Shown: positions 8,627 through 34,158 of the stretch, piece after piece
Position numbering within the stretch: position 1 is the first letter of the stretch
Layout of the letters: each line of letters begins with the position of its first letter
Assembly (NCBI GenBank): GCA_022824765.1
Contig: JAJDZG010000062.1
Location: forward strand, 1-35,208
DNA: 35,208 nucleotides
Direction of reading: 5' to 3'
DNA from: Dehalococcoidia bacterium
Lineage (GTDB): Bacteria > Chloroflexota > Dehalococcoidia > Bin125
The notes under the pieces: generated by a model
The model's database searches: none
What the model was told of the DNA's origin: nothing
What the model saw: the letters and a program-made list of their open reading frames with translations, nothing else
Program-made: the position numbers and the translations under genes

Positions 8627-9871
8627 CTAACCCTCGTCGGCCAACGCGGCAACGACGCGCTCGGCAACCTCAGCCGGCACCCGCGACATCCAGGCATCCT
8701 TGTTCTGCAGATACCAGATCGCGCCCGCGTCCGGCGTCTCGTCGTTGTCGCCCATCCAGATCTCAGTGTCGATCTGCTCCGCTGCGGTGTAGTCCCACGC
8801 GCGCAGGAACTCGATCACATCAGGCGCCCGATCAACCAGACTCGTGTTCACCGCAATCCGCACCTCGGACGACGGATACGCGCAGCCCTGATCGCCGTTC
8901 CAGCACTCCTCGCTCCACTCCGGCTCTTCCAGCCGGTACAGGTCGAGCGTGGCCGTCGGCTTCGTCGGACCCCAGATGTAGCCCAGCCAGTTGTCGCCGC
9001 GCGCGTACGCGCCTTCAAGGTCGGCGAACAGCGCCGCGCCGCTGCCCGGGTCGACAACATCCACGACATCCTCGAGCTCGTACGCGGTCACCTTGTTCAG
9101 GTTCACCAGCTCGCACGCCCAGCCCGCGATGCAGCCCACGAAGCGAGCCTTGCCGCGCGAATCGGCCGTCACAAACAGATCCTGGTAGTCAGGCAGGTCG
9201 AAGACCGACACCAGGCCCGGGTTGGCGTCCTTGACGTACTGCGGTACGACCCAGCCTTCCCAGTTCTCGTCCAGGCTGTCGCCGAGCAGCTCGATCACGC
9301 CCTCGTCGAGGTCATCGATCCAGGGCTGCTGCGCCGGCCAAATCTCCAGCGTCACGTGCGTGTCATTGTTCGTCAGACCCGCCCACAGCGAGACCGTGTC
9401 ACCGGCCACCAGCTCCGTCGGGTAGCCGTAGCCGTGCTCGACGATGTACGCCACCACGCGCGTCTGCACCTCAGAGCTCGTCCAGTTGAGATCCGAGAAC
9501 ACGATCGGGTCCTTCGGCTCCGCCTGCATCGCCTGCTGTTGCTGCTGATGCTGATGCTGCTGATCCTGCTCGTGATCGTGCTGATCCTGCTCGTGATCTT
9601 GCTGATCTTGCTGGTCGTCGTGCTGCTGCGCCTCGGCAACAGTCTGCTGCTCTTCTTGCTGCTCGGCCTGCATCGCCTGCTGCTGCTCTTGCTGCGGCTG
9701 CTCGGCTTGCATCGCCTGCTGTTGTTGCTGTTCCTGCTGCGGCTGTTCCGCGGCCGACTGCTGCTGCTCGTCGTCCGACGAACAGGCCGCGCCCAAGATT
9801 GCCACAGCTGCGGCTAGTCCCGCGAACGCAAGTCCCGCGCGGCGCAGCCGTTTCGTTCCCATCAAACGCAC
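8627..9871 (-). CDS. Glycine-betaine/proline-type ABC binding lipoprotein, Q/H-rich stalk
   Basis: Substrate-binding protein of the OpuAC/ProX type, 414 aa, lipid-anchored outside the membrane and delivering quaternary amines such as glycine betaine to the permease encoded upstream. The signal peptide ends LGAAC with lipidated C30. Residues 31-118 are a stalk dominated by Q, E, D and H, with the unit AMQAEQPQQEQQQ partly repeated and six histidines between 84 and 108. The binding domain starts near 121 (VFSDLNWTSSEVQTRV). I kept the GTG at 9871 because GAGG lies 6 nt upstream; ATG 9862 is the alternative. The binding domain contains Cys pairs (VGCIAGWACEL, EECWNGDQGC) that could form disulfides. 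Last gene of the operon. Confidence 0.87.
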   Translation of the reverse strand: MRLMGTKRLRRAGLAFAGLAAAVAILGAACSSDDEQQQSAAEQPQQEQQQQQAMQAEQPQQEQQQAMQAEQQEEQQTVAEAQQHDDQQDQQDHEQDQHDHEQDQQHQHQQQQQAMQAEPKDPIVFSDLNWTSSEVQTRVVAYIVEHGYGYPTELVAGDTVSLWAGLTNNDTHVTLEIWPAQQPWIDDLDEGVIELLGDSLDENWEGWVVPQYVKDANPGLVSVFDLPDYQDLFVTADSRGKARFVGCIAGWACELVNLNKVTAYELEDVVDVVDPGSGAALFADLEGAYARGDNWLGYIWGPTKPTATLDLYRLEEPEWSEECWNGDQGCAYPSSEVRIAVNTSLVDRAPDVIEFLRAWDYTAAEQIDTEIWMGDNDETPDAGAIWYLQNKDAWMSRVPAEVAERVVAALADEG

Positions 9872-10010
9872 TCATCACCTCAATGTCTCGCTCGACGCCA
9901 ACTCGACGCCTGTGTGCTCAACTCAAGCTATCAGATAGCGACGCCCGCGCCCTCCCCGATCAGGCCCATGCATCCATTGCCATAAGGGAAGCAGCAGCGC
10001 CAACGACCGC

Positions 10011-10271
10011 TCAATCCTGCGTACGGCGGCCTCGATTGACCCGATACGCCGCCCACAGCGTCATCCCAATCGCCATGATCACAAACAGCGCCTTCGCCCC
10101 GCCCAGAAACGCATTGGGCGACAAATCAGGATCCGCCAACGCAAAGCCAGCCAGCACCCAGAAAAACACCGCGATCAACCCCGTCGAGAGCATCCGAATG
10201 CCACTCGCCCGCTCTGCCAACCGTTGCATCTCATGCTCCTCCCGGCCGTGCTCCTCTGGGCCGCGGCTCAC
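10011..10271 (-). CDS. Small two-helix membrane protein coupled to betaine permease
   Basis: An 86-aa protein with a charged N-terminus (SRGPEEHGREEHE), two predicted membrane helices (LSTGLIAVFFWVLAGFALA and LFVIMAIGMTLWAAYRV) and a basic C-terminus. I do not recognise a family. It is likely real because its GTG start at 10271 overlaps the permease stop in a GTGA tetranucleotide, and it sits inside the transporter operon between permease and binding-protein genes. It may be an accessory or regulatory subunit of the transporter, but that is only inferred from position. A start at the internal Met-15 (10229) cannot be excluded. Confidence 0.65.
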   Translation of the reverse strand: MSRGPEEHGREEHEMQRLAERASGIRMLSTGLIAVFFWVLAGFALADPDLSPNAFLGGAKALFVIMAIGMTLWAAYRVNRGRRTQD

Positions 10272-11299
10272 TCGCCGCTGACCGCTTCCTGCTGACGGCG
10301 CGTCAGCGCCTGCGTCATCCGATCCATGATGATCGCCAGAATCACGATCCCCAGCCCGGCAATAAACGCATTACCAGGCTCGATCCGTCCCAACCCTTGG
10401 TAAACCTTCAGACCCAACCCGCCAGCCCCGATCAACGAGGCAATCGCCACCATCGACAGCGCCATCAGCGTGGTCTGGTTCACGCCCGCCATGATCGTCG
10501 GAATAGCCAGTGGAATCTTCACCTTCAGCAGCATCTGCCGACGCGTCGCCCCAAACGACTCAGCCGCCTCCAACGTCTCCGCCGGCAGCTGTCGAATCCC
10601 CAGATTGGTCAGCCGCACCGCCGGCGGCACCGCAAAGATCAGCGAAGCGAGCACCCCCGACACGTTGCCAAGCCCCAGAAACGCCACCACAGGCACCAGA
10701 TACACAAAGCTCGGCATCGTCTGCATCGCATCCAACACCGGACGCAGGATCACGTCCAGCCGATCACTCTGCGACGACCAAATGCCCATTGGCACCGCAA
10801 TCCCAATCGACAACGTCACCGTCACGATGATCAGCGCAACCGTCTCCATCGTCGCCGGCCACAGTCCGAACACCGCCAACACCAGCAGCGACGCCACCGA
10901 TCCAAACGCCATCCGCCAGCTCACCATCTGCAGACAAACCAGACCCACCATCGCAATGAACGCCGGCCACGGGAACCACAGCAGCATGTCCTCCAGGCTG
11001 ATCAAGAACCACGTCATCACATCCTTGATGCTCTGAAAGAACCACGAAACATTGGTCGTCAGCCAGTCAACCGCATCATCCAGCGCATTGCCCACGTCTC
11101 GGCCCACATCGACCGGCACCTCTTCGCTGCCCACCGCGTAGGCGATCAGAAAACTCAGCATGATCCCCAGCACGACCAACGGCCGAACGTACCATCGCTC
11201 GGGAATCGGCTGCCCGGCCATCGGCGACGAAATCAGCCCCCACAGCCAGCTCATTGGCAGCAGCAGACGCTTCAGTGCAGCAGGAGGAGGATCATCCAT
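10268..11299 (-). CDS. Glycine-betaine/proline-type ABC permease
   Basis: Inner-membrane permease of the ProW/OpuAB family, 343 aa. Hydrophobic helices fill residues about 37-330; the cytoplasmic coupling (EAA) loop reads EAAESFGATRRQMLLKVKIP, followed by LAIPTIMAGVNQTTLMALSM, a hallmark of this family. A soluble-looking segment around residues 57-95 (EEVPVDVGRDVGNALDDAVD) precedes the core helices, as in ProW proteins. It begins 5 bp after the ATPase gene and overlaps the small membrane gene by 4 bp, so the four genes form one operon for osmolyte or quaternary-amine import. Confidence 0.9.
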   Translation of the reverse strand: MDDPPPAALKRLLLPMSWLWGLISSPMAGQPIPERWYVRPLVVLGIMLSFLIAYAVGSEEVPVDVGRDVGNALDDAVDWLTTNVSWFFQSIKDVMTWFLISLEDMLLWFPWPAFIAMVGLVCLQMVSWRMAFGSVASLLVLAVFGLWPATMETVALIIVTVTLSIGIAVPMGIWSSQSDRLDVILRPVLDAMQTMPSFVYLVPVVAFLGLGNVSGVLASLIFAVPPAVRLTNLGIRQLPAETLEAAESFGATRRQMLLKVKIPLAIPTIMAGVNQTTLMALSMVAIASLIGAGGLGLKVYQGLGRIEPGNAFIAGLGIVILAIIMDRMTQALTRRQQEAVSGE

Positions 11300-11304
11300 A
11301 CGCG

Positions 11305-12366
11305 CTATCCCTCCGACGCAGCAGCCGTGGCAGCCTCATCCGACGCCATCGCCCGCGCCAGCAACTGCAGCGGGATCACCCCGACCAGCTCGCCCGAATC
11401 GCTCACCACCTGCAACGGCTTCGTCGCGGCCAGACCAGCCGGCACCAAATCGTCCAGCACCGTGCTCTCCCGCACCACGTAGCGATCCTCGGTCGGCTCA
11501 GCGAGCGCTGCCTCGCTGCTGTCCATAATCGATCCAGCCGTAACCATCGCATGCAAGCGCACGTCTTGCGTGAACTCACGCACGAACGCATTCGCCGGCT
11601 CCAGCACCACCTCCGTCGGCGTCCCCTGCTGGACAACCACACCGTCGCGCATAATCGCGATCCGGTCGCCCACCCGCACCGCCTCGTTCAAATCGTGAGT
11701 GATGAAGATGATCGTCTTCTGCACCGTGTCCTGCAGCGTCAGCAGCTCGTCCTGCAAGTCGCGCCGGATCACCGGGTCAAGCGCCGAAAACGGCTCGTCC
11801 ATCAGCAACAGCGGAGTGTCCAGCGCCAGCCCGCGCGCCAGTCCCACCCGCTGCTTCATCCCGCCCGATAGCTGGCGCGGCATCGATTGACCCCAGTCGC
11901 CCAGACCCACCAGCTCCAGCGCCGTCGCCGCCCGCCCACGACGCTCCCGACGTGCCACGCCCCCGATCTCAAGCGGCATCGCCACATTGTCCATCACCGT
12001 CCGGTGAGGCATCAGACCGAAGTGCTGAAACACCATCGCGATCCGGTAGCGGCGCAGATCACGCAGCGCCTGATCCTCCATCGCAGTAACCTCGTCCCCC
12101 TCCACCCACACCTCGCCCTTCGACGGTTCGATCAGCCGATTGATGCAACGCACCAGCGTCGACTTTCCGCAGCCCGACAGCCCCATCACGACAAACACCT
12201 CGCCCCGCCCAATCTCCAGATCGACCTTCGAAAGACCCAGCACCGCGCCAGTCTCTTCCTGGATCGCATCCTTCTCCGCGCCCGACAACGCCATCCCCAG
12301 ACCCAACTCATCGGGATCATTGAAGACCTTGTACAGCCCGCGTATCGAGACCGCCGATTCCGTCAC
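11305..12366 (-). CDS. Quaternary-amine ABC transporter ATPase
   Basis: ProV/OpuAA-type ATP-binding subunit, 353 aa, cytoplasmic face of the betaine-type transporter. Walker A GLSGCGKST is at about 62-70, followed by the QHFGLMPHRTV Q-loop, the signature LSGGMKQRV, Walker B LLLMDEPFSALD and the switch ITHDLNEAV. The last 70 residues resemble a single CBS module (VVRESTVLDDLV ... SGELVGVIPLQLLARAM), the ionic-strength sensor of OpuA-type ATPases, shorter than the usual tandem pair. I chose GTG 12366 because GGAGG lies 4 nt upstream and because family proteins start close before IRGLYKVF. First gene of the operon; the 64-bp gap to the hydrolase upstream is short, so read-through is possible. 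Confidence 0.9.
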   Translation of the reverse strand: MTESAVSIRGLYKVFNDPDELGLGMALSGAEKDAIQEETGAVLGLSKVDLEIGRGEVFVVMGLSGCGKSTLVRCINRLIEPSKGEVWVEGDEVTAMEDQALRDLRRYRIAMVFQHFGLMPHRTVMDNVAMPLEIGGVARRERRGRAATALELVGLGDWGQSMPRQLSGGMKQRVGLARGLALDTPLLLMDEPFSALDPVIRRDLQDELLTLQDTVQKTIIFITHDLNEAVRVGDRIAIMRDGVVVQQGTPTEVVLEPANAFVREFTQDVRLHAMVTAGSIMDSSEAALAEPTEDRYVVRESTVLDDLVPAGLAATKPLQVVSDSGELVGVIPLQLLARAMASDEAATAAASEG

Positions 12367-12430
12367 AGACCCTCCAAGCCAGCCACCGCGGCTGCCCCTC
12401 ACCATAGGGCACACCTCCAGGCCCACCCGA

Positions 12431-13971: not shown

Positions 13972-16900
13972 CTAATGCCAATCGTGCGCGCTCGGCATGC
14001 GGATCTCCGCGCCGATCGCCTCGACCCGCTCGGCCACGATGTTCGTCGTCCCGTCCCAGCGATCGATCCGCCCCTCAATGATGATCAGCTGGTTACGCAG
14101 CGACCGACGGCTCCGCTCGAAGACCTGCGGCCAAATGATCGACTGCACATCGCCCGTTTCGTCCTCGATCGTGACGAACACCGTCCCGTCCTGACCGCGC
14201 GGATGCTGCCGCGCGATCGGCCAACCCGCCACGCGGACACGCTCCCCGTCCCGGCACGCATAGACGTCGCGGCAGCGCCGCACGCCCGCCGCCAGCCTGG
14301 GACGGATGAACTCCATCACATGCCCGCTCGGATAGATGCCCAGCACCCGATACTCGCCGACCATCTTCTCGTAATCCGAAACATCATCAAACCGCGGCGG
14401 CGGCTCCGCGCTCGCCGTCGGAAACGCCCGCTGACCCGACCGGCCCGGACGAATCGAGAGCCCCGCCTCCCACAGCGCCGCCCGACGGTTCGGCGTCACC
14501 CGGTCGAACCCACCAGCCTCGATCAGCGAACGCACCGCTTGCGGCTTGAGGCCAGTCCGACGGACCAGCTCACCCGCATCGGAGTACGGCCCGCCCTGCT
14601 CCCGCTCCTCGACGATCACCCGCGCCGACTCAGGTCCGATGTCCTTGATCATGGCCAGCCCCAGTCGGACTCGCCCAACGGAGGACGCACAGGAATCGGG
14701 CGCGGCGCCCACAGCGCTCTGGTTGATGCACGGATTCAGAAACTCCACCCCGAACCGCCGTGCATCCTCCTTCAGCGTCTCCAGCGGATAAAAGCCCATC
14801 GGCTGGTTGTTGAAGAGCGTGACGAAAAACTCCAGCGGGTGGTACCGCTTCAGCCACGCGGCCTGAAACGCCGTGATCGCAAACGCGTGCGAGTGCGACT
14901 CGGGAAACATGTAGTGACCGTTGATCTTGCCAAAAATCTTCTCCGCCGTCTCATCGTCGACCCCGTTCGCGCGCGCGCCATCCATGAAGCGCTCACGATG
15001 CATCGCGATCAGGTGCTCGTTGTTCGCCCGCGCGAACGCACGGCGCACCTCATCCGCCTCCGCCGCCGACATCCCGGCCACGTCCATGATCAGCTGGACC
15101 ACCTGCTCCTGCCAGACGATCACCCCGCAGCCGCGCTCCAACGCCCGTGCTTCCAGCGGGTGATCGTAATCCCACTCCACGCCGTGCCGATAGCGATCGA
15201 CAAACTCGCTGACCGCACTGCCCTGTGTACCCACACCTGGCCGGATCAGAGCCACCTGATACGCAAGATCGAGCAGCGTACGCGAGCGCAGCCGCTGGCC
15301 CATCTTCAACTGGGCCGGCGACTGCAGCAGAAACACTCCCTTCGATCGGCCCGCGTTGATCATGTCGTACACCCCGTCGTCGTCCGGACTCAGCTGGCTC
15401 AGATCAGGCCGCTCGCCAGTCCGCTGCTCGATCAGCTCCAGCGCCTCCTCCAGCTGATCGAGCACGGGCAGCGAGAGCAGGTCGATCTTCGCGAAATTGG
15501 CGTCCGCCACACTGTCCTTGTTCCAGTCCATGATGTAGCGGCCCTCGATCGCCCCAGCCCGCACCGGCACCATCTCCGGAATCGGCGCGTCGCTCAGAAT
15601 CATCCCCCCCACGTGCTGGCTCAGGCCGCGCGGCGCATCCATCAGCTGCGGCGCGAGCGCGACCAGATCTCGCCAGCCGTGCGCACCCACCTTCTCGCGG
15701 AACGACGGCAGCTGCGCCATCTCCTCCCCCAGCCGCGACCCGTCGTGCGAGTGAATCTGCTTCGACAGCAATCGCAAATCGTCCCGCGGCAGCCCCAGCG
15801 CCTTGCCCAAATCCTGAATCACGCCCTTCACCGAATACGTCGTGATCGCGCCGGTCAGCACCGCATAGTCACGACCGAAGTAGTCGTGCACCCGCGCGAT
15901 CAGCTCGTCCCGCAGCCCGCGCGGAAAGTCGAGATCAATATCCGGCAGCGACGTCATGTCCTCAGGCAGAAAGCGATCGAGCGTCAAGTCCCACTTCAGC
16001 GGATCGACATGGCTAATCCCGATCAGATACCCAACCAGCAGCGCCACCGACGACCCCCGGCCGCGACCAGGCGGACGCGCCTCCAGCGACGTTTCAGGCT
16101 CAGCCAGGCCGCGCTCCTGCATGATCCCCAGCGCCAGCCGCACGATCTCCCGGTACAGCAGCAGAAACCCCGCCAGACGGTGACGCCTGATCAGGCGAAA
16201 CTCCTGCTCCAGCCGCTCGCGGACCGCCGGCCCGATCGTCCCATAGCGGCGCGCAGCCGCCTCCTCGCAGAGCCGCTGCAGATAACCCTCCGGTGTGTAA
16301 CCGTCCGGCACGATCGGATCCGGCAGCGTGTAGCCCAGATCCGTACTCAGGTCGAACGTGCACTGCTCGGCGATCCGCCGCGTGTTCGCCACCGCCTCGG
16401 GACAGTCCGCGAACAGCCGCGACATCTCCGCCGGACACTTCAGATGCAAATGATGGTTCGGCTGAATCTGCGGCAGCGCCTGATCGATGCTCCGGTTCCA
16501 CTTCGCCGCCACCAGCGCGTGCTGCAAGCGATACCGCTCCGGCGAGTGATAGTGGACATCGTTGCTGGCCACCAACGGCGCTCCATGCTCGACCGCAAAC
16601 GAGGCCAACTCGCGGTTGCGGGCCGTATCGCCGCGTAGGAAATTCTGCTGCAGCTCCAGATACACCGCGTCGCCGCCGTACCACTCGCGGTAAGAACCCA
16701 GCAGCGCTCGAGCCTCCACCTCGCAGCCGCCCAACAGCAACCGCGACAACGCACTGCCCCGTCCCCCAGCCAGCAGCGTCAGACCCGCCGAGTGCGCAGC
16801 CAGATGAACCGGATCCAGCCGCGGCTCACGACGATCCACATCATTCGCCAACGTGAACAGCCGAGACAGATTCCCATAACCCTCCCGAGTGCGAGCCAGC

Positions 16901-17136
16901 AGCGTCACCCGCGAATCGTCCAGCAGCCTCAGCTCGCCGCCCGTGATCGGCTGAATCCCCAGGCTGTTCGCCAGCCGAGCAAACTCCAACGCCCCGCACA
17001 GGTTCGTATCCGTCTGGGCCATCGACCCCATCCCAAAGCTCGCCGCCTGGGCCAGCAGCTCGTGCCCGTGTGACGCGCCCACACCGAACGAATGGAAACT
17101 CTTGGCGTGCAACTCAACGTAGTCAACGTCAGTCAT
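13972..17136 (-). CDS. dnaE2: Error-prone DNA polymerase III alpha (DnaE2/ImuC)
   Basis: Translesion polymerase of the damage-inducible ImuB-DnaE2 mutasome, 1,054 aa. Order of parts: PHP domain (about 1-270), palm and fingers with catalytic acids in PDIDLD (398-403) and KIDLL (D552), GLSQHVGGMILS, the DnaE2-typical NNQPMGFYPLETLKEDARR, then a helix-hairpin-helix (ESARVIVEE ... RSLIEAGGFD) and an OB fold (RVAGWPIARQHPRGQDG). The PHP metal site is degraded: LHAKS stands where HxH is normal and TDTN where TDH is normal. ATG 17136 fits the family start; ATG 17166 would add 10 residues. It follows imuB by about 50 bp and shares its SOS promoter. Confidence 0.93.
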   Translation of the reverse strand: MTDVDYVELHAKSFHSFGVGASHGHELLAQAASFGMGSMAQTDTNLCGALEFARLANSLGIQPITGGELRLLDDSRVTLLARTREGYGNLSRLFTLANDVDRREPRLDPVHLAAHSAGLTLLAGGRGSALSRLLLGGCEVEARALLGSYREWYGGDAVYLELQQNFLRGDTARNRELASFAVEHGAPLVASNDVHYHSPERYRLQHALVAAKWNRSIDQALPQIQPNHHLHLKCPAEMSRLFADCPEAVANTRRIAEQCTFDLSTDLGYTLPDPIVPDGYTPEGYLQRLCEEAAARRYGTIGPAVRERLEQEFRLIRRHRLAGFLLLYREIVRLALGIMQERGLAEPETSLEARPPGRGRGSSVALLVGYLIGISHVDPLKWDLTLDRFLPEDMTSLPDIDLDFPRGLRDELIARVHDYFGRDYAVLTGAITTYSVKGVIQDLGKALGLPRDDLRLLSKQIHSHDGSRLGEEMAQLPSFREKVGAHGWRDLVALAPQLMDAPRGLSQHVGGMILSDAPIPEMVPVRAGAIEGRYIMDWNKDSVADANFAKIDLLSLPVLDQLEEALELIEQRTGERPDLSQLSPDDDGVYDMINAGRSKGVFLLQSPAQLKMGQRLRSRTLLDLAYQVALIRPGVGTQGSAVSEFVDRYRHGVEWDYDHPLEARALERGCGVIVWQEQVVQLIMDVAGMSAAEADEVRRAFARANNEHLIAMHRERFMDGARANGVDDETAEKIFGKINGHYMFPESHSHAFAITAFQAAWLKRYHPLEFFVTLFNNQPMGFYPLETLKEDARRFGVEFLNPCINQSAVGAAPDSCASSVGRVRLGLAMIKDIGPESARVIVEEREQGGPYSDAGELVRRTGLKPQAVRSLIEAGGFDRVTPNRRAALWEAGLSIRPGRSGQRAFPTASAEPPPRFDDVSDYEKMVGEYRVLGIYPSGHVMEFIRPRLAAGVRRCRDVYACRDGERVRVAGWPIARQHPRGQDGTVFVTIEDETGDVQSIIWPQVFERSRRSLRNQLIIIEGRIDRWDGTTNIVAERVEAIGAEIRMPSAHDWH

Positions 17137-17187
17137 GGTCAACACAGGCCATCGGCAAACTGGCATCGCTCGCGTGCAACGGCACCC

Positions 17188-18738
17188 TCATGCCGTTTGC
17201 TGGTACCAGGACGACTGGTGCTCGTCTCGGTAGAGGACCTGGCTCTGGCCGTTCCGTTGCGTGATCTGGTAATACTGACGACTCATCGGCGTCGGACGCC
17301 ACCAGAGATCAAAGCTCCACCGATCCTCGATCCGGGCGACCGCCTGCCACTGATCGTTCACTCGGATCGCCGCCGGCTCCTGGCCCGGACCTTCGCGAAC
17401 CTCGATCGCCGAGGGCTCCGCCAGCGGACGCAGGCGATCGGCCGCCGCAGGATCGATCGGCACCTGCAGCATCCGCAGCTCCGGCGCCGGATGCCACGCT
17501 GCCGCCTCGACGACTCGGTGCAGCGCCGGCCGACCGCCCAGACGAGCGCTCAACTCTCGCTCCACCGTCAGCAAACGCTGCTCGCGTTCGACTCGGGCAT
17601 CAGGAAACAGCGACAGCTGCAGACCTGATGCGCCGCTGATCTCGCTCAGCGTGATCGTCATCGACTCAACCGGCCCCGGCGGATGATCCCGCTCCAGGCG
17701 CTGCATGATGATCTCCACAGCCCGCCGACGGCTCTCCGCGCCCGATCCAATCCCGCCCTTGAAGTGAACCGCACGCTCCCAAATCCGTTGCCAGTCAGGC
17801 GCATCCTCCAGCGTGCAAGCCATCACCGCCGCGCCCGCCCGCCGACCCTGCAGCCGCGCGTGCCCGCACAGCCGGGCCAGCAGCGTCTCCACCGCCACCC
17901 GCAGCACCTCCAGCGATACCGCAGCCGACGGCAGCGCGAGCGTCTCGCTGACCGACTCCGCATCCAGCCGCGGACGCAGCGGACGTGGATCGATCCCCCG
18001 CGCCAGCTCCCAGATGCGTCGGCCCTCGCGACCGAAACGATCGAGCAGCGCCGACCCGTCCTGCGCCGCGATGTCCCCCAGTCGCCGCAAACCGAGCCGC
18101 TCCAGATCGTCCAGCAGATCAGGCGCAGCCAGCTCCGCCGGCAGCAGACGGATCGGCAGCGGCGCCAGAAAGCCCGCAGCGTCAGCGCCGACCCGGCTGA
18201 CGCCCGACGACTCACGCGTCCGCGCCGCTACGAACGCAGCAAACTTGCCTCCCGGCTGACCCGGCTGACTCGGCGCGACTCCGATCCGCGGCCCGAACTG
18301 CGACGGCACCGCCTGCAGCAGCGCATCAAGCATCGGCGCCTCCCCGCCGTACATCACCGCCAGACCCTCCAGTCCCACATACACGACGCCCAGCTCCGCA
18401 CCCTCAACGCGGTCGCTGACCTCCTCCAGCGCAGCCAACACCTGCTCGAACTCACGCCAATAGCCAGGCTCATCGGCCTCCACCACCACAGCCTCAGGCA
18501 CCTGCGACAGCACCTGCTCAACCGTCATCCCCCAGCTGATCGGCACCAGCGCCGGCAGCACATCCACGACCCGCCCGCGGCCATTCGCACGCTCCCCCGG
18601 CCGCTCGACAATCACGATCGGCCGCTCAGCCAGCTCCGGCCGCCGCGCCAGCTCGATCTGCGCGCGGACATGCGGGAACAGGATGCACGCAATCCCGGCA
18701 CTGCTGGCATCGGCGCAAACCCCGCGCGCTCGGCTCAT
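17188..18738 (-). CDS. imuB: ImuB-type Y-family pseudo-polymerase, mutasome adaptor
   Basis: Y-family-like protein of 516 aa that bridges DnaE2 to the sliding clamp during mutagenic repair. The Y-family fold is recognisable but the catalytic acids are gone: the first motif reads ACILFPHVRAQIE, without DxD, and the SxDE region reads VVYVGLEGLAVMYGG. A textbook clamp-binding peptide QLSLF is at residues 374-378. The little-finger region contains WELARGIDPRPLRPRL, and the C-terminal tail (WWRPTPMSRQYYQI) matches the ImuB type. ATG 18738 has AGGAAGG 8 nt upstream and lies just downstream of the SOS promoter. imuA is not upstream, where it often lies. Confidence 0.92.
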   Translation of the reverse strand: MSRARGVCADASSAGIACILFPHVRAQIELARRPELAERPIVIVERPGERANGRGRVVDVLPALVPISWGMTVEQVLSQVPEAVVVEADEPGYWREFEQVLAALEEVSDRVEGAELGVVYVGLEGLAVMYGGEAPMLDALLQAVPSQFGPRIGVAPSQPGQPGGKFAAFVAARTRESSGVSRVGADAAGFLAPLPIRLLPAELAAPDLLDDLERLGLRRLGDIAAQDGSALLDRFGREGRRIWELARGIDPRPLRPRLDAESVSETLALPSAAVSLEVLRVAVETLLARLCGHARLQGRRAGAAVMACTLEDAPDWQRIWERAVHFKGGIGSGAESRRRAVEIIMQRLERDHPPGPVESMTITLSEISGASGLQLSLFPDARVEREQRLLTVERELSARLGGRPALHRVVEAAAWHPAPELRMLQVPIDPAAADRLRPLAEPSAIEVREGPGQEPAAIRVNDQWQAVARIEDRWSFDLWWRPTPMSRQYYQITQRNGQSQVLYRDEHQSSWYQQTA

Positions 18739-18763: not shown

Positions 18764-18792
18764 AGTGTATGAACGTTAGTTCTGATTTGCAA
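18764..18792 (-). promoter_or_regulatory. SOS promoter for imuB-dnaE2
   Basis: On the minus strand TTGCAA (18792-18787, -35) is separated by exactly 17 nt from TACACT (18769-18764, -10); each matches four of six consensus bases. The LexA-box palindrome occupies the spacer, so repressor binding would exclude RNA polymerase. The -10 lies 25 nt before the imuB ATG. Confidence 0.65.
18771..18782. promoter_or_regulatory. LexA (SOS) box GAAC-N4-GTTC
   Basis: GAACGTTAGTTC is a perfect match to the GAAC-N4-GTTC core of the Bacillus/Actinobacteria-type LexA (DinR) operator. It sits 32 nt upstream of imuB, a classic SOS gene, which makes chance occurrence unlikely. The box may be recognised by a LexA encoded elsewhere. 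Confidence 0.85.
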
Positions 18793-18867: not shown

Positions 18868-19695
18868 TCAGGCACGCCCGGCATACACCTCCAGCAACCC
18901 AGACCCCACATCCCAGACCACCGCCCGAGCCTCCACCAGCTGCGCCAACTCCCGTGACATCTCCAGATTCCTCGCTCCCCCCGACACCAGCACCACAAAC
19001 TCCGCCGACTCCGGCACGCCCTTGCGACCGCCTCCCTCCGACATCAACACCCTCGCCGCGAGCTCGGGAGTTACCTCATCGCCGATCGCCGCTCCCCCGA
19101 CCTGCGCCGCAATCTCCGGCCGATGCACCGACCGCTCGTCCAGCGGACGCCCCAGCACGCCCGCACCAATCACCGCGCACACCACATCCGCCCCCTCGGG
19201 AATGACAGGCTCATGAGCGGCCGGCGCCTTGAACGGACGACCCTTCGACCCATCCGCCTCCACGCCGACCAGGCTCGCCTGCCCGCTATCCACCGCGCGA
19301 CGCGGCCAATCCGGCTCGATGCCCAGCACGCGCTCACGATCACCCCGCCCCGCTCCCACAACCGCGCTGCCCAGGCCGCGCGCAGCGATGTCCGCCAACG
19401 CGCCCGCCCGCGACGACTCCGTGCGCCCCAACACCAACGGCATCATCCGACCTGCCCGCGGAATCGTCATCCGCGTCGTCGTCGTCAAGACGCTCAGACC
19501 GCTCCCCCCAGCCTCCGCCCACTCCTGCGCGAGCGCGAACAGCACCGTCGTCTTGCCGCCACCGCCGACGCTGCTGAACACCGCCGGCCGCACGATCCCC
19601 AACGCCTCATGCAGCCTGGTCGCCCTACCACCGCTCAACGCCCCGCTGGACCCGATGGACCCGCTGGATCTGCTGGACCTCTCTGCTCCGGACAT
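18868..19695 (-). CDS. yqeC: YqeC-type molybdenum/selenium hydroxylase accessory protein
   Basis: Putative P-loop accessory protein of the YqeC family, linked to maturation of selenium-dependent molybdenum hydroxylases, 275 aa. The P-loop FSSVGGGGKTT lies near residues 40-50 and the family signature EADGSKGRPFKAPAAHEPVIP region near 167-186. The first 24 residues are a Ser/Gly-rich run from short GC-rich repeats and may not be translated, but no better start exists: ATG 19695 is the only ATG before the P-loop. It is divergent from mobA with 22 bp between starts, so both belong to a molybdenum-cofactor theme. No hydroxylase gene is in the window. Confidence 0.85.
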   Translation of the reverse strand: MSGAERSSRSSGSIGSSGALSGGRATRLHEALGIVRPAVFSSVGGGGKTTVLFALAQEWAEAGGSGLSVLTTTTRMTIPRAGRMMPLVLGRTESSRAGALADIAARGLGSAVVGAGRGDRERVLGIEPDWPRRAVDSGQASLVGVEADGSKGRPFKAPAAHEPVIPEGADVVCAVIGAGVLGRPLDERSVHRPEIAAQVGGAAIGDEVTPELAARVLMSEGGGRKGVPESAEFVVLVSGGARNLEMSRELAQLVEARAVVWDVGSGLLEVYAGRA

Positions 19696-26375: not shown

Positions 26376-27068
26376 CTACGGCATAGCCTCATACTCCGGG
26401 CTCGTGACCCGCTCGAATCGGCCCGTCACCAGAAAAATCGTCCGCTCGCAAATGTTCAACGCCCGATCACCAATCCGCTCCAGATTATGTGAACACCACA
26501 GCACATGCGTGATCGCGTCCGACGCCTCAGCATCCCCCTGCGCGCTCGTCAACCGCGCGATCAACCGTTCGTGGATCTCGCTGTAAATCTCGTCCACCTC
26601 ATCGTCCCGCTCGATCGTCCGACGCGCGAGCCGCTGATCACGCTCCAGAAATGATCGAGTCGCCGCCTGCAGCATCTCCCGCACGACGTCGGCCATCCGC
26701 CAGATGTCCGGCTCAGTCGCCGCGACCGGATTGTCTTCCAGGAATATCGCGTTCCGCGCAATCCCCTCCGCGTGCCCCGCTATCCGTTCCAGATTGAGCG
26801 CAATCGCCACGATCGACATCAACTCCCGCAGGTCGCCCGCCACCGGCTGCTGCAACGCGATGATGCTCGTCACCGCCTCCTCAATCCGGTAGCGCAGGTC
26901 CGTCGACTCATCCTCAGACTCCGCCACCCGCCGCGCCAACACCAGATCCCGGCGCAGCAGCGCCTGCATCGCATCCACAATCGATCGATCAGTCCGCGCT
27001 TGTTGCAGTCGCAGCTGATCAAGCACATCCGCGCGATCCGTGGTGTACGTCACCCGAACGGTTGACAT
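26376..27068 (-). CDS. phoU: Phosphate-specific transport regulator PhoU
   Basis: PhoU, 230 aa, a cytoplasmic two-bundle helical protein that mediates inhibition of PhoR by the Pst transporter when phosphate is plentiful. Two PhoU repeats are visible: ALNLERIAGHAEGIARN and SHNLERIGDRALNICER. The second keeps the ERIGD metal motif; the first has ERIAG with the Asp lost. ATG 27068 has GAGGTGG immediately upstream; ATG 27095 would add nine residues. It is the last gene of the pst operon, 92 bp after pstB, and its stop is followed by the tandem array. Length and order match the usual pstSCAB-phoU cluster. Confidence 0.92.
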   Translation of the reverse strand: MSTVRVTYTTDRADVLDQLRLQQARTDRSIVDAMQALLRRDLVLARRVAESEDESTDLRYRIEEAVTSIIALQQPVAGDLRELMSIVAIALNLERIAGHAEGIARNAIFLEDNPVAATEPDIWRMADVVREMLQAATRSFLERDQRLARRTIERDDEVDEIYSEIHERLIARLTSAQGDAEASDAITHVLWCSHNLERIGDRALNICERTIFLVTGRFERVTSPEYEAMP

Positions 27069-27160
27069 ATCCACCTCGCGATCGCTGCAAAGCAATCTCG
27101 TCGACGGGCCCCTCCCGCCGATCAGTCATTGCCATCGAGCCTCTGCGCTCTTCCCGCAGG

Positions 27161-28108
27161 TTAGCCATACCTGCCCGTAATGTAGTCCTCCGTGCGCTGG
27201 TCCAACGGATTCGTAAAAATCTCCTGCGTCGGACCGAACTCCACCAGACGCCCCACACGCTCCTCGCCAGCCAGCAAGAACGCCGTGTAATCGGACACCC
27301 GGCCCGCCTGCTGCATGTTGTGCGTCACCACCACGATCGTGTAATGCTCCGCCAGCTCCCGCATCAAATCCTCGATCTTCAGCGTCGCCACCGGATCCAG
27401 CGCCGAGGCCGGCTCATCCATCAGGATGATCTCCGGCTGCACCGCAATCGCCCGCGCGATGCACAAGCGCTGCTGCTGCCCGCCCGACAGCGCCAGACCC
27501 GACTTGTCCAGCTCGTCCTTGACCTCGTCCCACAGCGCCGCTCGACGCAGCGCGTCCTCGACCAGCCGATCCATATCGCCCGAATAGCCGTTGATCCGCG
27601 CCCCGAACGCCACGTTCTCGTAAATCGACTTGGGGAACGGATTGGGCTTCTGAAACACCATCCCAATCCGCCGTCGAACCTCAACCGCGTCCACCGTCGG
27701 ATCAATCAGGTTGCGCTCCTCGAAGCGAATCTCGCCCTCCACCCGCGCGCCAGGAATCAAGTCGTTCATGCGGTTCAGGCAACGCAGCAGCGTCGACTTA
27801 CCGCAGCCCGATGGACCAATCAGCGCCGTCACCCGATTCTTCGGAATCGGCAAGGAAATCTTATCCACCGCCTGGAACGTCCCGTAGAACGCTGAGACCT
27901 CCCGCAGCTCCAGCGCCATCTCGATGTCTTCCGTCAGATCATGACGCACCGCCTCCAGCGACGGATCGAGGTGCACCCCCACGCCGGCCGCTGGCGCTTC
28001 CTTCATGTTCGGCGGCGGCGGTGCCGTCGACCTTGAGCTCGACGACGGCCGAGCCGCCGTGCTGCTCGGCGCGCTCGATCGCATCACTGTGAAGAAGTTC
28101 CGTGCCAT
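27161..28108 (-). CDS. pstB: Phosphate ABC transporter ATPase PstB
   Basis: ATP-binding subunit driving phosphate import. Core starts at [13 protein letters not shown]; Walker [11 protein letters not shown]-loop [15 protein letters not shown], signature LSGGQQQR, Walker [12 protein letters not shown] and switch THN are all present and typical of PstB. Start is uncertain: ATG 28108 has a strong AAGGAG ribosome site with 6 nt spacing and gives 315 aa with a Ser/Pro-rich extension, whereas ATG 27919 gives the usual 252 aa but a poor ribosome site. Within the extension, 28011-28082 reads more protein-like in a shifted frame. pstA ends 62 bp upstream; phoU follows after 92 bp. Confidence 0.9.
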
Positions 28109-28170
28109 CTCAGGCTCCTTTGCCAGCGCGGCTCCAGCGGACTGCTTCCATAACCCAAAGCTACCAGCCG

Positions 28171-29553
28171 CTACCAATCGGTGCGCGTCCGTTGACGCAT
28201 GATGATCGCCGCCGCGTTCATCAGCAACAGAATCACCATCAACACGATGATCGCCGACGCCGCAATCTCGTGGAATCCAGCCTGCGGACGCGCCACCCAG
28301 TTGTAAATCTGGATCGGCATCACCGTGAAGTCGTCCGTCGGCGAATCCGCCAGGAACGCGATGAACGTCAGCGCCCCGATCGCGATCAGCGGCGCCGTCT
28401 CCCCAATCGCCCGCGACATCGCCAGGATGTTGCCCGTCAGCATCCCCCCGAACGCGTACGGCAGCACATGGTGGCGAACCACCTGCCAGCGCGTCGCGCC
28501 TACCGCATAGGCCGCCTCCCGCATCGACGGCGGCACCGTCCGCAACGCCTCCTGCGCCGACACGATGATGATCGGCATCACCAGCAGCGCCATCGTGCAC
28601 GCCCCCGCCAACACCGACCGCTCAAACTCCAACACCCGCACAAACACCTGCAGACCGAGCAGCCCATAGATGATCGACGGCACCCCGGCGAGATTCGAAA
28701 TGTTCACCTGGATCATCCGCGAAAACCAGTTGCGACGCGCGTACTCCTCCAGATAGACCGCCGCGCCCACCCCCAGAGGAAAAGCGATCGCCGCCGTAAT
28801 CGTCATCATGTAGAACGTCCCCGTCACCGCCGAAAATATCCCCGCCCCAGACGGCGACCGCGACGGATACGACGACAAAAACCACGGATCCATGAACAGA
28901 TAGACAATCCACGCACCGATCAGAATCGCCGGAATCAGCAAGCTCGGCTTGCGCATCCGATGCGACCAGAACCAGCCCATCAGCAGCAACGCCAGCGGCA
29001 GACCAATCCCCATGATCACCAGCCGCACGACCTGGAAACCCGATGCCTCCCCGAACAGCTGCAACACGTTGCCCGTCGCACCATCAATGTCGACCGCCTT
29101 CGCGTACTCGATGAAGTATGCCGACTCAAAGCGCACGTACAGGATGTGCAAGAAGACCGCGACCGGCGCAACGACCGCAAGGCCCATCAACCGCTCAGCA
29201 ACCCGCGGCACGCCGTGCACAACGCCGTGCGCAACGCTGTGCACCACACGCGGTCCCACAAATGGCAGCAGAATCGCAATCGGCAGCACCCAGCTCAGCC
29301 AGCCCATCCCCTCCGGCGTCGGCAAGTCCGACACGATGCTGCCGTCCCGCGCCTCCACAGACACCGCGCCGCCGTCCGTGAACAGCCGCGCCGCCCCATC
29401 CACCGCGATCTCCACAATCAGCGCACCCAGCATCAGGATCGAGACGGTGATCGCCAGCAGGGCGATCACCATGAAGCCCACCGAGATCCCCCGACGCACC
29501 CGCACACGCGGCGCGTACGCCGTGAGCTGAGCAGACGGCGTCGCTGCGCTCAT
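28171..29553 (-). CDS. pstA: Phosphate ABC permease PstA, N-terminally extended
   Basis: Second permease subunit of the phosphate importer, 460 aa against about 300 in most PstA proteins. The C-terminal half is canonical: [58 protein letters not shown] (EAA loop) and [15 protein letters not shown]. The first about 230 residues add several hydrophobic stretches ([52 protein letters not shown]), so extra helices and an external loop are likely. ATG 29553 overlaps the pstC stop (ATGA), which fixes the start. Confidence 0.9.
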
Positions 29554-30542
29554 TCGTATTCCTCCCGGAATCGCCGCGACACCCACTGCGCCACGACGTT
29601 CATCGCCAGCGTCAGCACGAACAGCGTCATCGCCACCGCAAACAACACCTTGAACTCAATCGACGTCGTCGGCGTGTCCCCCAGCGACAACTGCACGATC
29701 ATCGCCGTCATCGTCTGCACCGCCTCGAGCGGCCCCACGCCGAACTGCGGGTTCCCGCCGCCAGCAATCGTCACCGCCATCGTCTCGCCGACCGCCCGCG
29801 AAGCAGCCAGAATGATCGAGGCCACCACCCCCGAAAACGCCGCCGGCACCACCACCCGCAGGGACACCTCCATCCGCGTCGAACCGAGCGCATAAGCGCC
29901 CTCCCGCAGCGAACGCGGCACCGCCCGCATCGCATCCTCCGACAGCGACGCAATGATCGGCACGATCATCAGCCCCACCACGATCCCGGCCGACAGCGCG
30001 TTGTAAATGCCCACGTCCTGGCCGAAAATGTCGCGAATCACCGGCGACACCGAGACCAGCGCGAAGTATCCGAACACCACGGTCGGCACCCCAGCCAGCA
30101 CTTCCAGGATCGGCTTGACCACAGCCCGCACCCGCGGCGGCGCATATTCGCTCAGAAACACCGCCGCCATCAACCCCAACGGAATCGCCACAATCAGGCC
30201 GATCAGCGCGATCATGCCCGTGCCCCAGACCAACGCCCACACGCCGAACTGCTTCTCCGCAAACAGCGCCGACCACTTCGTCGAGCCAAAGAAGTCGATC
30301 AGTGGAATCTCGCGGAAGAACTCCACGGTCTCGAAAATCAGCACCAGCACGATGCCAATCGTCACAAACGCCGACAGCGTCGCCGTCAGAAACAGCGCGC
30401 CGTGAATCAGCCGGCCGGCCGCGGTCTCCCGTCCGCTCCCCGTCCGCGACGGCTGCAAGCGCTCCCGCCACAGCTCGGCCAGCAAAGAGCGAACGCTGTC
30501 CTGCGCGGGTCCGCCCGGCGGTCCTGGAACCTGTGCGGTCAT
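29550..30542 (-). CDS. pstC: Phosphate ABC permease PstC
   Basis: First permease subunit of the phosphate importer, 330 aa. Family features are GTGMIALIGLIVAIPLGLMA, FLSEYAPPRVRAVVKPILE, LAGVPTVVFGYFAL, the EAA loop RAVPRSLREGAYALGSTRME and AASRAVGETMAVTIAGG. Six or so helices follow a hydrophilic N-terminus of 45 residues. No good ribosome site precedes ATG 30542. It is separated from pstS by 242 bp holding a repeat array, unusual in a pst operon, and is coupled to pstA by a 4-bp overlap. Confidence 0.92.
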   Translation of the reverse strand: MTAQVPGPPGGPAQDSVRSLLAELWRERLQPSRTGSGRETAAGRLIHGALFLTATLSAFVTIGIVLVLIFETVEFFREIPLIDFFGSTKWSALFAEKQFGVWALVWGTGMIALIGLIVAIPLGLMAAVFLSEYAPPRVRAVVKPILEVLAGVPTVVFGYFALVSVSPVIRDIFGQDVGIYNALSAGIVVGLMIVPIIASLSEDAMRAVPRSLREGAYALGSTRMEVSLRVVVPAAFSGVVASIILAASRAVGETMAVTIAGGGNPQFGVGPLEAVQTMTAMIVQLSLGDTPTTSIEFKVLFAVAMTLFVLTLAMNVVAQWVSRRFREEYE

Positions 30543-30592
30543 AGTGGAGTCAAACTATGCAAGTCGCCCATTCAGGCGGTTAACGAGCGGTA

Positions 30593-30762
30593 AGCAAGCG
30601 GCGGGAGGACCAAACCAAATCCCTCCCCCGCAAGCGCCAGGAGGACCAAACTCAATCCCTCTCCAGCAAGCGGCGGGAGGACCAAACTCAATCCCTCCCC
30701 AGCAAGCGGCAGGAGGACCAAACTCAATCCCTCCCCCGCTTGCGGGGGAGGTTAGGAGGGGG
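30593..30762. repeat. Intercistronic 36-bp tandem array (B) with palindromic end
   Basis: GAGGACC begins at 30605, 30641, 30677 and 30713, exactly 36 bp apart; the unit is GAGGACCAAACTCAATCCCT followed by CCCC and a GCAAGCGGC-like half. The array ends with a perfect 9-bp-stem hairpin CTCCCCCGC-TT-GCGGGGGAG (30731-30750) and then GTTAGGAGGGGG. It fills the pstS-pstC gap, with the palindrome on the pstS side. No gene is seen here. Confidence 0.88.
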
Positions 30763-30784
30763 CCCCGCCAGCCTGACACCTCGG

Positions 30785-31978
30785 TCACTCAACCCCAAAG
30801 ATCTCCGCCAAGCTCGACCCCTCCGACGCCGACGCCATCGCCGACCCAGTGACCCCGCTCTCCACCCGCTCCAACACAGCAGCGTAGATCTCCGCCGGCA
30901 GCTGCACGTAGCCAACCTCAGGAGTGTCCACCAGCCACACACCATCCGTCAGGAAAAACTCCACGAACGCCGCCACCTCCTCACGCTCCAGCGACGACAC
31001 CGACGCATAGATGAACAGCGGACGCGACAGCGGATTGTACGACCCGTCTTTGATCGTCTCGTTCGACGGCGTCACCGCAACACCAGCGTCGTTCACCACC
31101 GGCACCGCCGTCAGCACGTCCGAGTTGTTCGCGTAGTAGCTGAAGCCGAAGTAGCCGACACCGCCGCGATCGTTGGACACGCCCTGCACCAGCACGTTGT
31201 CATCCTCCGAGAACGTCGTGTTGTCCGAGCGGTGCACCCCGCCGTCCCCGTTGATCGCCTCCGTGAAGTAGTCAAACGTGCCCGAGTCTGCACCCGGCGC
31301 GTACAAGGCAATCTCCACATCCGGGAAACCCGCCCGCACATCAGCCCACGACGTCGCATAGTCGTCCGGGCGGAAAATGTGGTTCAGCTCCGAAACCGTC
31401 AGAAAATCCACCCAGTCGTTGTCCTGGTTGATCACCACCGTCAGACCGTCGAACGCCACCGGTATCTCGATGAACTCAATGCCCGACTCCCCGCACAGCT
31501 CGACTTCCGAGTCCTTGATCGGCCGCGACGCATCCGAAATGTCCGTCTCGCCCGCGCAGAAACGCTTGAAGCCACCCCCCGTGCCCGACACGCCAACCGT
31601 CACCCGTACCCCGCGCTCCGTCAGAATCCCAAACTCCTCAGCCATCGCCTCCGTAATCGGAAACACCGTCGAAGACCCATCCACCTGAATCTCACCCTCG
31701 AGTCCCCCGAGCGCCTGAGCAGTCTGCTGCTGCTCCTGCTGCGACGGCTGCGCCGCCGCGGCCGCGGCCTGCTGTTGGTCGTCATCCTGCTCGGCCGCGG
31801 GCTCCTGTTGTTGCTGCGGCTGATCCTGTTGCTGGACTGCTGGCGCCGCTGACTGCTGGTCGTCGCCGCCGCAAGCGGCGAGCACCATCGCTCCGCCCAG
31901 GAGGACCGCGATCAGCAGCGGCAGCCAACGCACCGATACTCGCGACCCCAGATATTGTGCTGTCTCCAAGACCTTCAC
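30785..31978 (-). CDS. pstS: Phosphate-binding lipoprotein PstS with Q-rich stalk
   Basis: High-affinity phosphate receptor on the outer face of the membrane, 397 aa. GTG 31978 is chosen for its AGGAG at 6 nt (31985-31989); the longer reading adds 36 residues that carry no signal. The signal ends MVLAAC with lipidated Cys 36. Residues 37-92 are a Q, A, D and E stalk. Phosphate-contact segments follow: [38 protein letters not shown] and [14 protein letters not shown]. The gene stands downstream of phoR with a 183-bp gap holding a candidate Pho box, so it likely heads the pst transcript, and array B separates it from pstC. Confidence 0.93.
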
Positions 31979-32103
31979 CTTTCTCTCCTGCTGCGGACGG
32001 CTCTCTGCGCCGCCGCCGCAGCCTCGCGCGGGCTGAGGCGCACTCATCTTGAGTGCTCGCCATCTCCCGCGATCCATAGGGTTCACCCGATCGAGCGGCC
32101 CGC

Positions 32104-32132
32104 GTTAACCACCCTGATAACGACCAGTTAAG
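32104..32132 (-). promoter_or_regulatory. Candidate Pho box upstream of pstS
   Basis: Three related hexamers recur as GTTAAC (32104-32109), GATAAC (32116-32121) and GTTAAG (32127-32132), starts spaced 12 and 11 bp, the one-turn periodicity of PhoB/PhoP direct-repeat operators. They lie about 130 bp before pstS, whose -10-like TATGGA is at 32078-32073 on the minus strand. GTTAAC is itself palindromic, so orientation is ambiguous. GTTCACC motifs occur on both sides (32081 and 32152). Confidence 0.5.
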
Positions 32133-32161
32133 GGCGGGTTATTGCCCACACGTTCACCGCG

Positions 32162-33478
32162 TCACACTTCACGCTGCGACGCCTCAGTTTGCGCTGCGCC
32201 GCTCGGCTCCGCCACGGAACTCAAGGCCAACGGAATGCTGAAGCCAAACGTCGACCCCGCGCCCGGCGCGCTCTCCAACGACACGGCGCCGCCGTGCACC
32301 TCGGCGATGTGCCGCACGACCGCCAAGCCCAATCCCGTCCCTCCGCCCGACTGCCGCGCCCGATCGACCCGGTAGAAGCGCTGAAAAATGCGCGACTGCT
32401 CAGCTTGCTCAATCCCGATGCCCGTGTCCCGCACCCGAATCCACACCATCGGCGCAGGATCAGCCGGATCGCCATGCTCCGACCGCACCTCGATCTCGCC
32501 GCCCGCATCAGTGAACTTCACCGCGTTGTGCAGCAGGTTCAGCAGCGCACGCTCGACCAGCTCAGAGTCGGCATTGACCATCGTGCTGCCCCGACCGTTC
32601 GCCTCACAGCGCAACGACAGACCCTCCCGCGACGCCTGCGGGCGGATGCTCTCCACCGCCGCCCGAATCATCGACTCGATCGCCACCGTCTCCATCTGCG
32701 GTTCCGTCAGACCCGACTCCAGACGCGCCAGCGCAAGCATCTCCTCCACGAGCTGCTGCATCCGGCCCGCCTCCGACTGGATGATCTCCCGGAAGCGCTG
32801 CGCATCCTCAGGCTTGCGCGCGAGCTCCAGCGTCTCCGCCGCCGCCGATATCGTCGCCAGCGGCGTGCGCAACTCGTGCGAGGCGTTGATGAAAAAGTCC
32901 CGCCGCGCGATCTCCGCCTCGTAGAGGTCGGACAAATCATGCATCGCCAGCACCACCGACCACGGACCCGTCTCCGCGATGTCCGACACCGGCGCCACCA
33001 CCGTCCGATACCGTCGCTCCGCACGCAAGACCACCAGCATCGCCGGCGTACCCTCCGCATCCGCCAGCCGGACCGCATCGTATAGATCCGGATCCTCCAC
33101 CACGTCCAGCAACGGCGCATCTCGGACAGGACGCTCCGCGACGCCCAGCAATCGTTCCGCCGCCGGATTCAGGTAGCGAACCCGCGTGTCCCCGTCAACC
33201 GCGATCACGATGTCGCCCGTCGACGCAAGCGCCCGCTCAAGCTGATCCCGCTCCGCCTGTCGGCTGCCCAGTTCTTCCGCCAGCGCATCCCGCTCCTGAC
33301 TGGTCTCCGAGAGCGACCCGCGCAGCTCCGAGACGGCCGCGCCAGCGTTCCACAGACCGACTCCTGCGAGCACGACGCCCAACACCACGCACAGCACACC
33401 AGCGGCCACGGACATGTCGGCGGCGAGCAGCGCAACACCCAGCAGCAGGGCAGTGGCACCGATCGCGCTGGTCCGCAC
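32162..33478 (-). CDS. phoR: Phosphate-responsive sensor histidine kinase PhoR
   Basis: Membrane-anchored histidine kinase, 438 aa. Two N-terminal helices (about 8-45), a short coiled-coil (57-85), a PAS domain (about 85-185), then DHp and ATPase domains. The H-box FFINASHELRTPLATI gives phosphoacceptor H201; the N-box is NLLHNAVKFT, with DTGIGI and GGTGLGL lids. There is almost no extracytoplasmic loop, as in other PhoR proteins that sense phosphate through Pst and PhoU. GTG 33478 lies 2 bp after the phoB stop. The phoR name is supported by the phoB and pst neighbours. Confidence 0.9.
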   Translation of the reverse strand: MRTSAIGATALLLGVALLAADMSVAAGVLCVVLGVVLAGVGLWNAGAAVSELRGSLSETSQERDALAEELGSRQAERDQLERALASTGDIVIAVDGDTRVRYLNPAAERLLGVAERPVRDAPLLDVVEDPDLYDAVRLADAEGTPAMLVVLRAERRYRTVVAPVSDIAETGPWSVVLAMHDLSDLYEAEIARRDFFINASHELRTPLATISAAAETLELARKPEDAQRFREIIQSEAGRMQQLVEEMLALARLESGLTEPQMETVAIESMIRAAVESIRPQASREGLSLRCEANGRGSTMVNADSELVERALLNLLHNAVKFTDAGGEIEVRSEHGDPADPAPMVWIRVRDTGIGIEQAEQSRIFQRFYRVDRARQSGGGTGLGLAVVRHIAEVHGGAVSLESAPGAGSTFGFSIPLALSSVAEPSGAAQTEASQREV

Positions 33479-33480
33479 GC

Positions 33481-34158
33481 TCAGCGCTCGAATCGATACC
33501 CCGCCCCGCGCACGGTGATCAAGTGGCGCGGCGCGACCTCAGGCTGCTCTATCTTCTTCCGCAACCAACGCACGTGGACATCGACCGTCCGCGTCCCGCC
33601 AGCGAACGAGATGTCCCACACATCGTTCAGCAGCTGATCTCGGGTGAATGCCCGACCATCCCGCTGAACCAGATACGCCAGCAGCTCGTACTCCTTCGGC
33701 CGCAAAGGAATCGGCTCCCCCTCCCGAGTCAGCAGGTGGCGGTTCAGATCCAGCGTGAAATCGCCAAAGCTCAACACCCGCTCCTCCACCTCGATCTCCT
33801 GTTTGCGGCGCAGATGCACCCGCACCCGCGCCTTCAGCTCGGCCAACGAGAACGGCTTCGTGATGTAGTCGTCCGCCCCCAGATCGAGCCCCCTCACGCG
33901 ATCCGCCTCCGACGTCCGAGCCGTCAGCAGCAGCACCGGCGTCTGCGAGCGCTCGCGAATGCGGCGCAGCACTTCGATCCCGTCCATCCGCGGCAGCATC
34001 AGATCGAGCAGCACCAGATCCGGCTGCAGCGCCTGCGCCATCGACAAGCCCTCCAACCCGTCCTCAGCCGTCCGCACCCGATATCCCTCGTCCTCGAGAT
34101 TGAACCGCAGCGTCTCCGCCAACGGCGCTTCATCTTCGACCACCAACACCGTGCGCAT
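33481..34158 (-). CDS. phoB: OmpR-family response regulator PhoB
   Basis: Two-component regulator, 225 aa: receiver domain (1-118) with acidic pocket E8-D9-E10, phosphoacceptor D52 (LLDLMLPRMDG) and K101 (ITKPF), then a winged-helix DNA-binding domain (about 128-225) with RPKEYELLAYLVQ and the recognition helix in RTVDVHVRWLRKKIE. It should activate pst genes when phosphate is scarce. ATG 34158 has GGGAGAGG 7 nt upstream. First gene of the phoBR-pst set; a single GTTAACC (34223) in its upstream gap may be part of autoregulation but is too little to call. Confidence 0.92.
   Translation of the reverse strand: MRTVLVVEDEAPLAETLRFNLEDEGYRVRTAEDGLEGLSMAQALQPDLVLLDLMLPRMDGIEVLRRIRERSQTPVLLLTARTSEADRVRGLDLGADDYITKPFSLAELKARVRVHLRRKQEIEVEERVLSFGDFTLDLNRHLLTREGEPIPLRPKEYELLAYLVQRDGRAFTRDQLLNDVWDISFAGGTRTVDVHVRWLRKKIEQPEVAPRHLITVRGAGYRFER

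Follow-up and report, generated by a model that had tools for sequence, protein, structure and literature searches.

We found that a LexA-type palindrome overlaps the promoter of imuB in the window, as we call the whole 35,208-nt stretch of Dehalococcoidia DNA analysed here, and is a predicted operator. With a probability of about 0.87, LexA acts here as the repressor of a two-gene SOS operon, imuB-dnaE2, through an operator placed across its core promoter, and ImuB would serve as a scaffold for DnaE2. A two-gene SOS mutasome under a LexA box had been proposed in an earlier note on this DNA, and the proposal is supported by the presence of lexA, by the conservation of the box and by the absence of imuA. 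The box, GAACTAACGTTC on the minus strand (positions 18771-18782; GAACGTTAGTTC when read on the plus strand), is a GAAC-N4-GTTC palindrome, the form of the LexA box in Gram-positive bacteria. It lies between a -35 element, TTGCAA (18787-18792, minus strand), which is the counterpart of TTGACA-like hexamers in relatives, and a -10 element, TACACT (18764-18769, minus strand), separated by a spacer of exactly 17 nt. The minus strand thus reads TTGCAA-ATCAGAACTAACGTTCA-TACACT, followed after 25 nt by the imuB ATG (18738). The coordinates, the spacer and the position of the box within it, as claimed in the earlier note, were all reproduced.

A palindrome of this kind could also have arisen by chance or belong to another regulator, leaving the operon outside LexA control, and the pattern itself is common enough to keep this explanation in view: an exact GAAC-N4-GTTC occurs on average 0.31 times per shuffled window, and about 3 in 10 stretches of that length would be expected to have one. 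A lone box is not rare in the window, and therefore the case for an operator must rest on conservation. The genome-wide search for the pattern that the earlier note had suggested found a box at lexA and a near-box at recA, but no clear enrichment, since the whole 2.35-Mb assembly holds 23 sites against 18 for a reversed-pattern control; the idea that the pattern is enriched in the genome was dropped. Among the imuB promoters of relatives, the exact box is present in 28 of 34, compared with 5 of 6,370 control windows drawn from the same loci, where the 34 promoters span several families and share ancestry, so that 28/34 is not a tally of independent events. The relatives were taken from whole genomes and named records, nearly all titled as Chloroflexi, Chloroflexota or Dehalococcoidia MAGs. 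The box, whose absence from orthologous promoters had been named in advance as evidence against an operator, is therefore conserved, and across many families it sits at an equivalent place in the promoter, 2-6 nt past the -35 element, with a variable N4 and variable surroundings. The -35/-10 pairs around it mostly match 8-11 of 12 consensus letters with spacers of 16-18 nt, a geometry that is descriptive, because the promoter fit forced the box centre into the spacer, and that leaves the box count and its null untouched. Together with the same pattern at lexA and its degenerate form at recA, this conservation makes a chance palindrome or another regulator's site very improbable.

The conservation is not uniform. 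In most Chloroflexota relatives the C-terminal ImuB domain (ImuB-C) has an ORF of its own, which lies between the dead-polymerase gene and dnaE2, and across the phylum these split-type operons carry an exact box in 14 of 22 promoters and a box with one mismatch in 3 more, leaving about a quarter of the 22 with no good box. Three promoters of the fused type, to which the window belongs, have no good box either (L096, copy a of G009 and L082); in L082 the box is degenerate and dnaE2 is split over frames. Genome G009 holds two imuB-dnaE2 copies (L148, L149) and keeps the LexA box in only one of them, and another MAG likewise has two copies of the cassette (L087 and L089). The cassette is missing from 3 of the 15 genomes of the genus. 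A chromosome-scale record titled Candidatus Entotheonella, of another phylum (L095), holds a cassette closely related to the fused ones, whose box (GCACAAATGTTC) has one mismatch; this is a possible case of transfer between phyla.

For the window genome itself, a search with the lexA model TIGR00498 gave no match, while the same search recovered lexA in 14 of 14 congeners. That the genome lacks lexA could nevertheless be rejected: one of its 23 box sites, at position 356 of contig C14, is a lexA promoter, and this site at the contig end exposed a truncated gene. The contig ends inside lexA, leaving at its edge an N-terminal fragment, MPASVTATSS...PERIMAFLRRFFEDHHYPPSVRDIVEGCKLS. Its promoter carries an exact box, TCGAACACGAGTTCCG, and its DNA is 83% identical to the lexA locus of the nearest relative, which is intact. 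A lexA gene, the lack of which had also been set down beforehand as counting against LexA control, is thus encoded here as in the congeners. In the lexA promoters of 12 congeners the box is exact in 7 and has one mismatch in 5, and the congener LexA proteins have the residues for self-cleavage (the AAG site, the serine in GDSMIDA and the lysine in TLKR). Each of the 15 genus members (L104-L118) has a conserved near-box at its recA promoter, GCAC-N4-GTTC (given also as GCAC-N4-GTTCG), which in the window genome and in G007 is present in two copies, 26 nt apart. As predicted from these sequences, the SOS circuit of the genome is complete.

Exact boxes were also seen at other loci. One, CAGAACTTGTGTTCGT, is intergenic (L138:2028-2039), beyond a gene resembling uracil-DNA glycosylase and about 45 nt from the possible start of a short ORF. 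Others lie near a set of phage-like genes conserved in the genus (L156:411-1787, minus; L156:7079-9103, plus; L158:8263-9141, plus; L158:10532-11224, plus; with counterparts on contigs C83 and C129 of G000). The set includes a terminase large subunit (PHROG, E 2e-31) and an endolysin (E 1e-14), as well as a possibly portal-like ORF of 675 aa and a possibly capsid-like ORF of 293 aa, which have no family matches and take these names from their context; both are single-copy in 15/15 genus genomes and occur in 0/10 genomes outside it. In 9 of 15 genomes the 293-aa ORF is preceded, at a distance of about 610-670 nt, by an exact GAAC-N4-GTTC, and in two such a box stands directly before the 675-aa ORF. 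The set may be a domesticated prophage or a gene transfer agent with a link to LexA.

The two genes that follow the box in the window, imuB and then dnaE2, are both real, as the earlier note had claimed. The first (17188-18738, minus strand) encodes a 516-aa ImuB, an inactive Y-family polymerase fused to ImuB-C, which matches the Y-family IMS domain and whose structure model has the fold of a Y-family polymerase. Its reading as a protein with a dead active site and a QLSLF clamp motif was borne out: the catalytic carboxylates are gone, with ILFPH and AELGVVY in place of the MDAFF and SVDE of DinB from the same genome, and the beta-clamp-binding motif QLSLF occupies residues 374-378 (17605-17619, minus strand), with Q374 invariant in relatives. 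It is followed by a RecA-NT-like helix-strand motif (residues 379-411; 17506-17604, minus strand), in which VERELSARLGGRPALHRVVE resembles the N terminus of the RecA of the same genome, LLGDMERRFGEGALMRMGD, as compared by eye and unscored. The ImuB-C domain (residues 426-516; 17191-17463, minus strand), a separate ORF in sister lineages, is all-beta, and a search of its fold against the PDB gave nothing better than E 0.68, which agrees with a published remark that ImuB-C lacks any close structure. The second gene (13972-17166, minus strand) encodes DnaE2, an error-prone C-family polymerase that keeps the polymerase aspartates (PDIDLDF), and the genome holds a separate DnaE1 beside this full-length DnaE2. 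In its PHP domain several metal-binding residues are lost (HAKSFHSF, TDT), leaving a degenerate metal site. In the window the operon is flanked by unrelated genes, namely a phosphate pst-phoU-two-component cluster (26376-34158) and a glycine-betaine-type ABC transporter (8627-12426).

No imuA lies upstream of imuB, and none was found in the genome or in the congeners searched. Across 41 genomes the ImuA model NF033429 matched the recA region only and never reached its cut-off, ImuA' of the actinobacterium Kitasatospora gave no convincing match as a query, and each genus genome has one RecA. The earlier description of an imuA-less operon with yqeC upstream instead agrees with these searches. 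YqeC, or the alpha/beta hydrolases encoded downstream, could in principle be operon members replacing ImuA, given that yqeC (18868-19695, minus strand) lies on the same strand 129 nt upstream of imuB and that the start of the hydrolase ORF overlaps the end of dnaE2. Yet yqeC stands upstream of the box, outside the LexA-controlled unit, and adjoins the cassette, together with mobA, in one subclade only; on this synteny we rejected it as an imuA substitute. The hydrolase is present at only some loci, and both proteins come from unrelated families, making this the least probable of the explanations, with hardly any weight left to it.

Another explanation is that the operon is a canonical ImuA-ImuB-DnaE2 cassette that lost imuA, or whose imuA falls in an assembly gap. 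A fused ImuB-C is typical of canonical ImuB, and Chloroflexota do have canonical imuA-imuB-dnaE2 operons (L192-L194); on a megaplasmid of Thermomicrobium roseum (L160:2703-8168), a full-length RecA paralogue in the imuA position overlaps an imuB-like gene that is followed by dnaE2. Against this, none of the congeners searched has imuA, whose lack is thus not confined to this MAG, and the phylogeny of DnaE2 points elsewhere. In a tree rooted on DnaE1, built with no reference DnaE2X sequences that would fix the class name, canonical systems stand apart from a clade of split and fused ImuA-less systems (support 100/100), and the window's clade, with ImuB-C fused to the dead polymerase and no ImuA, is nested among the phylum's split systems. 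A constraint that unites all fused systems, and so joins the clade to the canonical ones, costs 144 log units and is rejected (p-AU 6.5e-84). The tree of the PolY core agrees in outline, but the same test there is borderline, with long branches (p-AU 0.055), and does not firmly exclude a single fused clade. The named comparators were obtained through DnaE2; tblastn for named ImuB comparators on plasmids found none. We therefore regard a stripped canonical cassette as unlikely. Of the imuA-less imuB-dnaE2 operon put forward in the earlier note, the two genes stand, but its DnaE2 sets the operon with the split, ImuA-less systems and not among canonical cassettes stripped of imuA.

The nesting in the DnaE2 tree and the rejected canonical grouping make the window's ImuB look like a second, independent fusion, and the simplest reading is that ImuB-C was fused once among the split systems, separately from canonical ImuB. 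A cassette of the fused type from another class of the phylum (L167, genome G255) is nested in the same clade, compatible with a possible transfer. We lean towards a second origin of fused ImuB in which, within split, presumably RecA-dependent and LexA-controlled cassettes, ImuB-C was fused to the dead polymerase and no ImuA was recruited.

Several elements of this system have been described before. That LexA controls the imuB-dnaE2 cassette wherever it is present has been stated as a general rule (PMC3323433), and a standalone ImuB-C alongside DnaE2 was already known (PMC3765255). ImuA-less variants with a standalone ImuB-C and a presumed RecA, such as the Kyrpidia tusciae type, were reported by Timinskas and Venclovas (PMC6511836), and in a 2026 survey this arrangement was later named DnaE2X and proposed as precursor of ImuA-ImuB-DnaE2 (PMC12926913). 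The regulation was therefore expected and is not new; what is new is the fused ImuB-C without ImuA and its apparent independent origin. In the part of the survey available, none of the 11 types is both fused and ImuA-less, and Chloroflexi go unmentioned (PMC12926913). Our literature search yielded no study devoted to LexA in Chloroflexota; RegPrecise includes Chloroflexi regulons (PMC3840689).

Compared with canonical LexA-controlled imuA-imuB-dnaE2 mutasomes (Caulobacter, Pseudomonas, Mycobacterium), the window shares a dead ImuB with a clamp motif and a fused ImuB-C, an adjoining DnaE2 and a LexA operator, whereas its genome has no detectable imuA and its DnaE2 falls outside the canonical group. 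With DnaE2X systems it shares an inactive Y-family scaffold next to DnaE2, ImuB-C and the lack of ImuA, and their RecA-NT-like motif may have a counterpart in the window's ImuB, seen by eye against the RecA of the same genome; unlike their standalone ImuB-C, that of the window is part of one 516-aa ImuB. The box resembles Gram-positive LexA boxes in its palindrome, in its overlap with the promoter and in its occurrence at lexA, but differs in its flanks, which are often AGAAC..GTTCT in relatives and CAGAAC..GTTCCG at lexA within the genus.

We hypothesise that LexA dimers bound between the -35 and -10 elements would keep RNA polymerase off the promoter, and that upon DNA damage RecA filaments would promote LexA self-cleavage, leading to the expression of imuB and dnaE2 together. 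The dead ImuB could then serve as a scaffold, with QLSLF contacting the sliding clamp and the ImuB-C beta domain contacting DnaE2, while its RecA-NT-like motif would bind RecA, standing in for the missing ImuA, and the tethered DnaE2 would copy past lesions. The regulatory half of this scheme is strongly supported by the operator with its conserved position and by a lexA gene with its own box. The protein half would follow from the motifs and from models published for related complexes, with RecA as the probable substitute for ImuA. We infer from these data that LexA binds, that the operon is induced, that the proteins make these contacts and that mutagenesis results.

LexA control of the mutagenesis cassette would thus span an uncultured, phylum-wide lineage in which both ImuA-less architectures are seen. 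A natural two-gene mutasome may allow the roles of ImuA and RecA to be separated, and it gives an evolutionary case against which to test the idea that ImuB arose when a dead Y-family polymerase became fused to a standalone ImuB-C protein. If the second origin is true, these cassettes would show in living organisms the kind of fusion from which the canonical mutasome has been proposed to originate, and they would form a mutasome of two proteins that relies on RecA itself.
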